Notes under the pieces: model-generated
Seen by the model: the letters and a program-made list of their open reading frames with translations, nothing else
What the model was told of the DNA's origin: nothing
Database searches by the model: none
Program-made: the position numbers and the translations under genes
NCBI GenBank assembly: GCA_019347855.1
Contig: JAHWKO010000024.1
Location: forward strand, 1-25,963
Direction: 5' to 3'
DNA from: Actinomycetota bacterium
GTDB lineage: Bacteria; Actinomycetota; Nitriliruptoria; Nitriliruptorales; JAHWKO01
DNA: 25,963 bases
Shown: in pieces, positions 19,202-25,962 of the stretch
Layout: each line of letters opens with the position of its first letter
Position numbering within the stretch: position 1 is the first letter of the stretch

Positions 19202-22200
19202 ATGGCGGGCGACGGGGTGCTCGGAGCGATCGGACGGTGGCCCGTGCTGCGGCAGTTCCGCGAGCGGGACGTCGCTGGATTGGGCGCGACCGCGTACTCG
19301 TCGGCCACGGAGCGCATGGGTCCCCGAACACGCGACGCCGACACGGTCGCGCGGTCCATCTGCCCGTACTGCGCCGTGGGCTGCGGTCAGCTCCTGTACG
19401 CCAAGGACGGGGAACTGATCGACATCGAGGGCGATCCGGACTCCCCGATCTCCCGGGGGAAACTGTGCCCCAAAGGGGCGGCGACGATGCAGCTCGTGGC
19501 GGGGAAGCACCGCGTGAAGACCGCGCGGTACCGCCGTCCGGGCGGGACCGAGTGGGAGGAGGTCGACCTCGACTGGGCGATGGACCGCATCGCCGACCGG
19601 GTCAAGGAGACCCGGGACCGCACCTGGGAGGACACCGACCCGGACGGGCACCCGCTGCGGCGGACGCTGGGCTTCGCGCACCTCGGCGGCGCGACGCTCG
19701 ACAACGAGGAGAACTACCTCATCAAGAAGCTCTTCACGGCGCTCGGCGCGATCCAGATCGAGAACCAAGCCCGCATATGACACAGCTCTACGGTCCCCGG
19801 TCTGGGGACCAGCTTCGGTCGCGGCGGCGCGACCACGTTCCAGCAGGACCTCGCGAACGCGGACTGCATCGTGATCGAGGGGTCGAACATGGCGGAGTGC
19901 CACCCCGTCGGGTTCCAGTGGGTGATGGAGGCCAAGCGGCGCGGCGCCACGATCATCCACGTCGACCCCCGGTTCACGCGCACCAGCGCGGTCGCTGATC
20001 TCCACGTCCCGCTCCGGGCGGGCACCGACATCGCCTTCCTGGGTGGCCTGATCAACCACGTGATCCAGAACGAGGCGTACTTCGAGGAGTACGTCCGTCA
20101 CTACACGAACGCGAACGTCATCATCAGCGAGGACTACCAGGACCCGGAGGACCTCGACGGGCTCTTCAGCGGGTGGGACCCCGACGAGGGACAGTACGAC
20201 CCCAGCAGCTGGCAGTACGTGGGCGGCTCGGTGGCACCGTCGGCGGGGCAGAAGGAGATGTTCGCCGGGGCCGCGTCGCCCGAACAGGGCGCAGGGTCGG
20301 GTCAGGCCGCGCGTGGCAGGGACGTCACCCACACGGAGACCGATGACTCGCTGCAGCACCCGAACTGCGTGTTCCAGATCCTGAAGCGGCACTTCTCGCG
20401 GTACACACCAGAGGTCGTCGAGGACGTCTGCGGGATCCCGGCGGAGCGGTTCCAGCAGGTCGCGGAGACGCTCGTCGCGAACTCGGGCCGGGACCGGACG
20501 TCGGCGTTCTGCTACGCCGTCGGCTGGACGCAGCACACGGTGGGCGTGCAGTACATCCGCACCGCGTCGATCCTCCAGCTGCTCCTCGGCAACATCGGTC
20601 GCCCGGGCGGGGGGATCCTCGCGCTGCGTGGACACGCATCGATCCAGGGATCCACGGACATCCCGACCCTGTACAACCTGTTGCCCGGCTACCTGCCCGT
20701 GCCACACGCGACGCACGACACGTCGCTGGACGAGTACGTCGAGTACAACGGGTCGGCCACCGGGTACTGGGCGGACTTCCGCTCCTACGCGGTCTCGCTC
20801 CTGAAGGCCTACTTCGGTGACGCCGCCACGCCCGACAACGACTTCTGCTACGACCACCTGCCGCACCAGAGCGGTGACCACTCCCACATGACCACCGTGG
20901 CCGCGATGGCGGACGGCATCGTCGAGGGCTACTTCATCATGGGGGAGAACCCGGTGGTCGGGTCGATGCACGGCGCGCTGCACCGCAAGGCCGCGCGCAA
21001 CCTGAAGTGGTGCGTGGTCCGGGACTTCTACCCGACGGAGTCCGCGGAGTTCTGGCGCAAGGGACCGGAGTTCGACCGAGGGGAGGCCCGTCCGGAGGAC
21101 TGCGACACCGAGGTGTTCTTCCTCCCCGCCGCGGCCCACTCCGAGAAGGACGGCGCCTTCACCAACACCCAGCGGCTGTTGCAGTGGCACGAGAAGGCGG
21201 TGGAACCTCCCGGGGACTGCCGGAGCGAGCTGTGGTTCATGTACCACCTCGGCCTGCGCCTGAAGGAGCGGTACGCGGGCTCCGAGGACCCGAAGGACCG
21301 ACCGATCCAGGACCTGACGTGGGACTACCCGACCCAGGGACCCCACGACGAACCCGAGGCGGAGGAGATCCTCGCCGAGATCAGCGGGTGGCGGATCGAC
21401 GAGGACGGGGAGCGCGAGTACCTGGCGAGCTACACCGAGCTCGAGCCCGACGGTTCGACCGTGGCCGGGTGCTGGATCTACACCGGCGCCTACGCCGATG
21501 GGGTCAACCTGCCGGCCCGGCGCAAGCCCTGGCACGAGCAGAACTGGATCGCCCACGAGTGGGCCTGGGCGTGGCCGGACAACCGGCGCATCCTCTACAA
21601 CCGGGCGTCGGCGGATCCCCAGGGCCGGCCGTGGTCGGAACACAAGCGCTACGTCTGGTGGGACGAGGACGCGGGCGAGTGGACGTCCCTCGGGGACTCC
21701 GTCGACTTCGTGCCGGGACGGGAACCCGGGTACGAACCGCCCGAGGACGCCACCGGCACGGATGCGATCGCCGGCGACAGCCCGTTCGTCATGCAGTCGG
21801 ACGGGAAGGGGTGGATGTTCGTCCCGACGGGGCTCCTCGACGGTCCCCTCCCGACGCACTACGAGCCGCAGGAGTCGCCGGTCGAGAACCTGCTCTACGG
21901 CCAGCAGTGCAACCCGGCGCGCATCGAGTGGGACCGGCCCGACAACCCCTACCACCGCGCGTTCGGGGACGAGCGGTTCCCGTACGTGCTCACCACGTAC
22001 CGGTTGACCGAGCACCACACGGCCGGCGGCATGAGCCGCTGGTTGGCGTGGCTCTCCGAGCTGCAGCCGGAGCTGTTCTGTGAGATCTCGCCCTCCCTGG
22101 CCCAGGAGAAGGGCATCGAGAACGGAGGCTGGGCGACGATCCGGACCGCCCGGGGGGAGATCGAGGCACGGGTCCTCGTGACCGAACGCATGCAGCCGCT

Positions 22201-25062: not shown

Positions 25063-25108
25063 TCGAGTGTCCGGAGGGTCCATCTGGTTGGACTCTCCGG
25101 ACACTCGA
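25063..25108. terminator. Long hairpin between convergent mobA and DUF6457 genes
   Basis: Bases 25063-25081 and 25090-25108 are inverted copies with 18 of 19 positions paired around the 8-nt loop ATCTGGTT. It lies 8 nt after the mobA stop and 27 nt before the DUF6457 stop, so it can terminate both transcripts. No T tract is present. Confidence 0.75.
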
Positions 25109-25135: not shown

Positions 25136-25384
25136 TCAGTCGGGGTCGTCGGGCAGGGTCGCGAGGACCCGGTCGACGGTCTCGTCGAAGGCCTCGCCGC
25201 GGTCCGCGCCGCCTTCGAGCTGCCGCCCCAGCTGGATGCCCACGAGGTACGACGTCAGCGGGGCGAGCTTGCGTTCCGTGCCGTGCGCCACGTCCCGGGT
25301 CAAGTCGAGGATCGCGGAGATCTCCTCGGGGGGGAGAGGTTCCTCGTCCAGTGCGTCCGCGAACCGTCGGAGCCAGTCGCTCAC
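25136..25384 (-). CDS. DUF6457 family small protein
   Basis: The 82-residue, mostly helical protein begins with GTG 25384 (VSDWLRRFADAL). The segments EEISAILDLTRDVAHGTERK and APLTSYLVGIQLGRQ resemble the DUF6457 proteins often found beside mobA in actinobacteria. The function is unknown; a link to molybdenum cofactor or formate dehydrogenase is suggested by context only. Its start overlaps the stop of the upstream rhodanese-CBS gene (GTGA), so the two are cotranscribed. Confidence 0.82.
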   Translation of the reverse strand: MSDWLRRFADALDEEPLPPEEISAILDLTRDVAHGTERKLAPLTSYLVGIQLGRQLEGGADRGEAFDETVDRVLATLPDDPD

Positions 25385-25962
25385 GTGTGACCTCCTCGGA
25401 GTGCGTCGTAGGCGTCCTGGATACCTAGGACACCGATGAGCTCCCCCTCCTTCGTGGTTACGACGACGGAGGAGGTCTCGGCGTCCTCCATGCGGGACGT
25501 CAACCCATCGAGGTCCTCCGACCCGCGGACCGTTGTCGGTCCCTCGATCATGACCTCCCGTGCGACGGAGTCGGGCTGGCCTTCGACGTGCCGGGGGAGG
25601 ACCTTGCCCAGGACGATCCGCTCCTCGTTGAGGACCAGGGCGAAGCCGACAGGGTGGTCCAGGTCGACGTCGCTGACCTGGTCGTCCAGGCCGCACGTCG
25701 GGACGTCGTCGTCGGCCGCCGTGGCCGCCGTGGCGTGTTGTCCCGCGTGCCCCTCGGTCGGCCAGCCGGCAGCCAGCCAGTCCTCCTTACCGCCGGCGTA
25801 GTCGTACACATCGCTGAACCCGAGCTGCTCGAGCCGCCACGCGGCTCGCGGGCTGAGGTCTCAGAGGAACCCACCGCAGTAGACGATGACCGGCAGGTCC
25901 CGGTCGAGCTGATCCAGGACGCCCTCACGGAAACTGGCCAGCGGGGCGTTGATCGCGCCTGG
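25381..25962 (-). CDS. Rhodanese-CBS fusion protein with in-frame UGA (candidate selenoprotein), 5' end outside window
   Basis: Read through the TGA at 25861-25863, this partial frame gives a rhodanese domain (PGAINAP at the edge, then DLPVIVYCGGFL-Sec-DLSPRAAWRLEQLGF and VYDYAGGKEDWLAAG). A CBS-pair-like region follows (FALVLNEERIVLGKVL, then TSSVVVTTKEGELIGVLG). Rhodaneses move sulfane sulfur through an active-site Cys; CBS domains often bind adenosyl ligands. In relatives of this kind the loop reads CxxxxC, and the UGA replaces the second Cys. A hairpin downstream fits a bacterial SECIS. The open frame after the stop (25381-25809) alone would lack the catalytic loop. A nonsense mutation or read error (TGC to TGA) is the alternative. 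The true start lies beyond the window. Confidence 0.75.
25830..25848 (-). promoter_or_regulatory. Candidate SECIS hairpin of the rhodanese-CBS gene
   Basis: On the minus strand CGAGCCGC and GCGGCTCG form a perfect 8-bp stem with the loop GTG. The loop starts 20 nt after the UGA, and its first base is G, as expected for bacterial SECIS elements (loop about 16-37 nt from UGA with an early G). Stems like this also arise by chance in GC-rich coding DNA. Confidence 0.5.

Follow-up and report, generated by a model that had tools for sequence, protein, structure and literature searches.

A gene at the very end of the DNA analysed here, a 25,963-nucleotide contig of an Actinomycetota bacterium (JAHWKO010000024.1, the whole of which is subsequently designated the window), very probably specifies a selenoprotein in which a rhodanese, with C-x4-Sec in its active-site loop, is joined to a CBS pair. 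Judged from sequence, we hold with high confidence that the in-frame TGA of this gene is a selenocysteine (Sec) codon throughout a rhodanese-CBS subfamily; this confidence refers to Sec decoding and not to the chemistry of the protein. The Sec reading is based on the in-frame TGA itself, the presence of TGA in four DNA sequences, protein halves that break at the same column, Cys as the alternative residue and conserved flanks. The gene comprises the following features:

25381..25962, minus strand: putative rhodanese-CBS selenoprotein gene, recognised by read-through, Pfam matches to rhodanese and CBS, and homologues; 5' end cut by the window end, stop codon TGA 25381-25383
25861..25863, minus strand: in-frame TGA, predicted to be read as Sec, second position of the C-x4-U motif; TGA also at the same column in L007, L008 and L010 (plasmid records, see below)
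25876..25878, minus strand: Cys of the active-site loop that opens the C-x4-U motif; conserved in 102 of 102 full-length homologues among the matches listed
25771..25962, minus strand: rhodanese domain (Pfam PF00581), with its N-terminal part beyond the window end
25396..25563, minus strand: CBS domain (Pfam PF00571), second half of the CBS pair; structure hits to CBS pairs were obtained with the AlphaFold2 model of homologue P0009
25693..25695, minus strand: third Cys (DVPTC), ahead of the CBS pair and nearly constant by homologue counts

Read on the minus strand from position 25962, the gene runs ...LPVIVYCGGFL-TGA-DLSPRAAWRLEQLGFSDVYDYAGGKEDW... and continues past this codon without another stop as far as TGA 25383-25381. 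As the initial annotation had stated, the rhodanese frame is broken only by the TGA at 25861-25863, which is the sole internal stop of the 194-codon rhodanese-CBS frame. The read-through protein, PGAINAPLASFREGVLDQLDRDLPVIVYCGGFL-U-DLSPRAAWRLEQLGF...CBS...GGHT, is partial at its N-terminus due to the window end, only 33 codons preceding the TGA inside the window. In Pfam, this partial protein matched rhodanese PF00581 with 31.9 bits (cut-off 22.2) over residues 1–64, i.e. across the TGA, and CBS with 24.6 bits (cut-off 24) over residues 134–189, one of the two CBS motifs being found. The corresponding read-through of Pseudonocardia autotrophica scored 46.1 bits for rhodanese and 35.8 bits for CBS.

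Four plasmid records, from Rubrobacter marinus, P. autotrophica, P. broussonetiae and Nonomuraea, matched at least 80% of the query. Three of the four carry TGA at the Sec column (R. marinus, L007 position 6103; P. autotrophica, L008 position 4196; P. broussonetiae, L010 position 636), flanked as in YCxDxL-TGA-DMSPRAA, and the fourth, Nonomuraea, has TGC. Both Pseudonocardia copies are annotated as two adjacent CDS, rhodanese and then CBS, and ATG is the second codon after the TGA in three of the four TGA copies. These features would suit a true stop separating two genes, i.e. half a rhodanese, of 67 residues, followed by a CBS protein starting just after it by stop-restart at UGA-GAC-AUG or UGA-GAU-AUG. 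We regard such an arrangement as very unlikely: the TGA lies inside the rhodanese active-site loop, so that neither half would be a complete fold, the homologues with Cys are each encoded by a single uninterrupted frame, and the window offers no start codon within 17 codons 3' of the TGA, yet the sequence there is conserved, with 13 of the 17 residues identical to R. marinus. The R. marinus copy itself is frameshifted further upstream, its N-terminal part (L007 5840-6000) lying in another frame, and therefore could be a decayed gene or contain sequencing errors. On this plasmid record, some neighbouring genes likewise look split, and assembly frameshift errors are possible there.

Homologues were then sought among 5.8 billion proteins. 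The read-through query gave 1112 matches, the best 120 of which were listed, leaving 119 after removal of the window's own piece. Among these matches listed, 102 were full-length and 17 lacked the N-terminus, beginning at query residue 36 (12 proteins) or 52 (5 proteins), i.e. at start codons after the Sec column. The five that begin at residue 52, as does the window's own predicted piece, are the nearest relatives among the matches listed (P0003–P0007, 66–82% identity). The Sec-column residue of the 102 full-length homologues listed was Cys in 89, Trp in 10, Ser in two and Arg in one, in agreement with the initial annotation, which had placed Cys at this column in related rhodaneses. The Ser proteins P0030 and P0080 and the Arg protein P0056 are otherwise intact and represent possible losses of the redox pair.

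The ten Trp forms (P0011, P0012, P0016, P0026, P0054, P0067, P0077, P0088, P0099 and P0105) might be taken to mean that UGA is read as Trp, in the manner of code 4, or is generally suppressed, rather than decoded as Sec. This appears highly improbable. The window uses the usual code, since TGA ends 10 of the 11 window genes checked, the rhodanese-CBS gene included, and the alternative to TGA is Cys, both in Nonomuraea DNA (TGC) and in the 89 of 102 full-length homologues listed. Moreover, JGI is the source of every Trp form among the matches listed, and each of them sits on a short contig (949–1848 bp). JGI is among the sources in 54 of the 102 full-length rows listed, and the hypergeometric chance of 10 out of 10 is 0.0011 in this test, which was chosen post hoc. 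Gene callers that pick code 4 on short contigs would yield Trp at TGA. The Trp forms are probably TGA codons read by code 4, a state deduced and not taken from DNA.

Support for Sec at this column also came from protein halves. N-terminal query pieces cut at the Sec column (alignment A1) gave at least 7999 matches, all below E 1e-3; the length filter in this search removed full-length proteins, whereas the read-through search above is free of such a bias in favour of pieces. Among the best 120 of 7999, the halves measured 67 (99 proteins), 68 (19 proteins), 77 and 92 residues, and all 120 stop just before the Sec column, four residues past the loop Cys. C-terminal query pieces cut at the same column (A5) gave 6953 matches of 7996 scored; the best 120, of which 12 were shared with the read-through search, all start exactly two residues past the Sec column. 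Although the queries favour pieces, contig ends or random mutations would scatter such ends, and some halves lie on long contigs (up to 308,898, 169,563 and 98,007 bp). A common break at one column, like the TGA shared across species, is more than chance would give. Two pairs of N- and C-terminal halves, P0136 with P0329 and P0225 with P0341, look like halves of one gene each, as the partners share a source and have equal contig sizes (4742 and 2401 bp for the two pairs). The stop of the halves is known by its place and not as TGA, and the Sec state assigned to them is putative. Their source names include Actinobacteria/Actinomycetota, Acidimicrobiia, Pseudonocardia, Gemmatimonadota (P0198) and Dehalococcoidia (P0338). 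The best reading is that a C-x4-Sec rhodanese-CBS protein is present in Actinomycetota and, going by record names, in Gemmatimonadota and Dehalococcoidia.

These data also bear on whether the interruption in the window is a read error or marks a recent pseudogene, the former being one of three routes by which, according to the initial annotation, the Sec reading might fall. Neither this route nor that of a non-Cys residue in homologues overturned the Sec reading. The window is a single sequence without raw reads and R. marinus shows that frameshifted copies exist; nevertheless, we give this explanation next to no credit. The TGA is common to three complete plasmid records, the 240 listed halves break at that place and the five nearest relatives among the matches listed, P0003–P0007, all begin at the same downstream codon.

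Sec and Cys forms appear to have been exchanged repeatedly. A tree of 232 C-terminal regions (quick method, LG+G4), in which 77 of 227 inner branches are weakly supported and some branches are long, needs at least 13 Sec/Cys changes when TGA, Trp and truncated forms are counted as Sec. Well-supported branches alone force about 5–6 changes (5 independent pairs, or 6 if Cys is set against all other rows including the three Ser/Arg rows). Repeated exchange of this kind is typical of selenoprotein families. The third Cys (DVPTC) is found in 88 of 89 Cys forms, 10 of 10 Trp forms and 124 of 125 truncated forms; it is missing in both Pseudonocardia copies and thus not essential. A codon-level signal eight residues past Sec (loop U) was considered as support for Sec and set aside. 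Where the residue at that place is other than Trp, all 10 Sec-form rows have Cys or Ser (9 of these rows are distinct, P0304 being identical to P. autotrophica) versus 2 of 20 Cys-form rows, and the tree-aware test is powerless (5 pairs, median p 1).

Formate dehydrogenase provides a second Sec candidate in the window, which speaks in favour of the Sec reading, and a reference for the hairpin downstream of the rhodanese-CBS TGA:

19778..19780, plus strand: predicted Sec codon, TGA, in the gene for formate dehydrogenase alpha (fdhA), IENQARI-TGA-HSSTVPGLGTSFGRGG in frame
19775..19833, plus strand: SECIS_3 match at fdhA (RF01989, 35.7 bits, E 9.8e-5, under the gathering score of 63)
25830..25848, minus strand: SECIS-like hairpin CGAGCCGC-GTG-GCGGCTCG, stem from +13 and loop at +21 after the TGA, not diagnostic

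Downstream of the fdhA TGA, the NCBIfam model NF041513 (formate_DH_Act) matched with 1444.5 bits, and the hairpin there has a 7 bp stem with GU at +20/+21. For the rhodanese-CBS gene, the 8-bp stem and the G-first (GTG) loop described in the initial annotation are present, but the hairpin does not start 20 nt downstream: its stem begins at the 13th and its loop at the 21st base. All four TGA copies share a stem of 7–8 bp from +13 and a loop at about +20 to +24 containing GU; the Nonomuraea Cys form has an identical stem with another loop. When codons were randomised, the share of versions that equalled or exceeded the native sequence in stability was 0.024 for the window, 0.161, 0.372 and 0.623 for the plasmid copies, 0.529 for the Nonomuraea Cys form and 0.110 for fdhA. 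Three of the four TGA copies thus show no clear excess of stability; as the fdhA SECIS itself gives only 0.110, this test is weak in both directions. Relative to dinucleotide shuffles, the window hairpin reached z -0.67. A 91-base search of the rhodanese region with the Rfam SECIS families yielded no SECIS match, the sole match being a chance one. Taken together, the hairpin is compatible with a SECIS element and is not evidence by itself.

None of the 17 window frames scanned matched a sel family, and SelB was not found on the three TGA-bearing plasmids searched. The Actinomycetospora species A. chiangmaiensis presumably belongs to the Pseudonocardiaceae. According to the accessible text of PMC7176365, its strain DSM 45062 expresses SelA, SelB and SelD and removes formate in a selenium-dependent manner. 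Rubrobacter xylanophilus is entered in a selenoprotein-loss table with the number 5, taken here as its selenoprotein count (PMC1794560, available portion).

Searches elsewhere returned little. Viral contigs, addressed by protein, alignment and DNA pattern, contained no useful homologue and one match to the rhodanese part (L028); phage records had no match to the rhodanese-CBS protein. In 398 Bacillota genomes, 17 matches at E <= 1e-12 were obtained, none of them extending beyond position 129 of 230. A scan of genome contigs with patterns from the window's unusual variant hit six loci, covering at most query residues 1–73 with no stop in the matched stretch. One rhodanese match with a single TGA in a Bacillota genome (L015, G160:C189:10123-10482) was rejected as a candidate: its C-x4-C loop is open, and the only stop seen, about 41 residues past the loop, looks like an ordinary gene end.

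We then considered the gene neighbourhoods. In the window, the gene has the following direct neighbour:

25136..25384, minus strand: DUF6457 gene (Pfam PF20058, 58.6 bits), whose GTG start overlaps the rhodanese-CBS stop (GTGA)

The DUF6457 gene, for which the initial annotation had proposed cotranscription, is the overlapping neighbour. mobA (NTP_transf_3) lies on the opposite strand, convergent on the DUF6457/rhodanese-CBS pair, and is not co-transcribed. Between the convergent mobA and DUF6457 genes there is an inverted repeat (25063-25108; 20-nt arms, 95% complementary, 6-nt loop), which is probably a two-way terminator. A role in sulfur or selenium supply, suggested previously from the link to mobA and fdh, found no support on the three plasmids, where the surroundings of the gene differ from those in the window.

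On the P. autotrophica plasmid (L008 2484-6297), the order is MerR, MerB, an unknown protein, the rhodanese-CBS gene, another unknown and an MFS transporter. On that of P. broussonetiae (L029/L010), it is an ArsR-type regulator, an unknown, merA, merB, 607 bases with one open frame, the rhodanese-CBS gene, which is separated from merA and merB by the record start, and an MFS transporter. Thus, MerB is encoded upstream with one frame between on both Pseudonocardia plasmids (95.3 and 123.3 bits), the intervening frames not being alike by eye; of these two, P. broussonetiae alone has MerA (507.2 bits). Across all four DNA copies a conserved operon context was not seen, merB being upstream in both Pseudonocardia only. 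Located between merB and an MFS transporter on both plasmids, the Sec rhodanese-CBS gene may contribute a selenoprotein to mercury resistance clusters.

Tight mercury binding would be within the reach of a C-Sec pair. The Sec protein may accordingly serve metal handling, above all of mercury, the pair working alongside MerB to take over Hg(II) or organomercurials, or may act on arsenic or selenium species; this would compete with the persulfide chemistry outlined below and leaves Sec decoding untouched. In its favour are MerB upstream and the MFS transporter downstream in both Pseudonocardia plasmids, as well as several other selenoproteins implicated in mercury or arsenic resistance and the listing of a MerB-like selenoprotein, SaoL, in the accessible part of a review (PMC13188914). 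Against it, the R. marinus plasmid gave no MerB or MerA match, the window neighbours are fdh, mobA and DUF6457, and a single mobile cluster may be common to both Pseudonocardia plasmids. The merB neighbourhood moved weight toward metal handling, and we therefore rate it as possible but doubtful, and persulfide chemistry as a tentative proposal.

The fold was modelled confidently with AlphaFold2 for the Cys homologue P0009 (31 rows; pLDDT 95.3, pTM 0.81). In a Foldseek comparison, this model came closest to the solved structures of BH2092, a single-domain rhodanese, and of CBS pairs, several of the latter with AMP, ADP or ATP in their titles. Sec of the rhodanese-CBS protein occupies the sixth position of the loop, which in common rhodaneses is Arg or Thr. 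By analogy with established biology, SelB with Sec-tRNA would insert Sec at the UGA, aided by the hairpin just downstream. In the persulfide chemistry that we tentatively propose, the loop Cys would take up sulfane sulfur or an oxidised group, Sec would attack the group bound to this Cys to form a Cys-S-Se bridge (selenenylsulfide), thioredoxin-like reductants would reopen the bridge and the CBS pair would tune the reaction by binding an adenine nucleotide. A wider and, as a whole, improbable scheme would make these proteins a large unlisted subfamily with Sec at the sixth rhodanese-loop position, in which selenium-sulfur or selenium-mercury chemistry is linked to the adenylate state by way of the CBS pair, and in which copies with AUG after the UGA may act as a selenium switch, producing the full-length protein with selenium and a CBS-only restart product without it.

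Several known systems resemble the rhodanese-CBS protein. The closest NCBIfam model is TsoB (NF045694; rhodanese/DsbD fusion-like, 'rhodanese form 5', U-x4-U), which likewise has Sec in a rhodanese and matched residues 19–86 of the partial window protein; however, the score of 29.5 bits is below the cut-off of 805, and TsoB has two Sec residues and, by its name, a DsbD-like fusion instead of CBS. The LYCAU rhodanese-related (seleno)protein (NF041203, 'form 3') shares the rhodanese and a Cys ahead of Sec, but its motif is CxU, not CxxxxU, and the partial window protein scored 26.3 bits against a cut-off of 115. Forms 1, 2 and 4 (UxxS, UxxG and UxxG) share Sec in a rhodanese and begin with it, whereas here Cys comes first and Sec follows five residues later. 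With seven proteins scanned against NCBIfam 20.0, no listed model reached its cut-off. BH2092 of Bacillus halodurans (PDB 3nhv/3o3w), the closest solved fold (Foldseek E 3.4e-10), has a C-x4-C loop, YCWGPACNGATKAA, aligned to the rhodanese-CBS loop, but Cys at both loop places, no CBS domains and 28% identity. The rhodanese-CBS Cys proteins (P0009, the Nonomuraea copy) match in architecture and column, with Cys instead of Sec. In its accessible part, the 2026 review (PMC13188914) counts 119 selenoprotein families or subfamilies with five rhodanese forms, UxxS, UxxG, CxU, UxxG and UxxxxU (TsoB), and a C-x4-U rhodanese or CBS fusion is absent from its 119-family table. No report of a rhodanese-CBS selenoprotein was found in the literature covered, which included the available text of PMC9312934, PMC1088965, PMC2398784, PMC5029168 and PMC12013277, most subscription journals and preprints being outside its scope. 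The rhodanese-CBS protein may therefore be described as a further member of the rhodanese selenoproteins, set apart by a new motif as well as a new fusion, which may be in print elsewhere.

If the Sec reading is correct, a single selenoprotein subfamily is represented in databases by many broken entries, split by annotation into a 'rhodanese-like domain-containing protein' of 67 aa and a 'CBS domain-containing protein' of about 160 aa. This pattern holds for each of the 240 halves listed (the best 120 of 7999 and of 6953). The confinement of Trp at the Sec column to short-contig JGI proteins among the matches listed would, in addition, indicate a possible general route to selenoproteins missed in code-4 gene calls. 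The subfamily would add to the thiol-type selenoproteins of Actinomycetota and further phyla and provide natural Sec/Cys pairs for enzymology, and direct tests would be possible in isolates carrying the gene. Finally, it would link selenium to CBS-type sensing and serve as a pointer to selenium in mercury resistance clusters.
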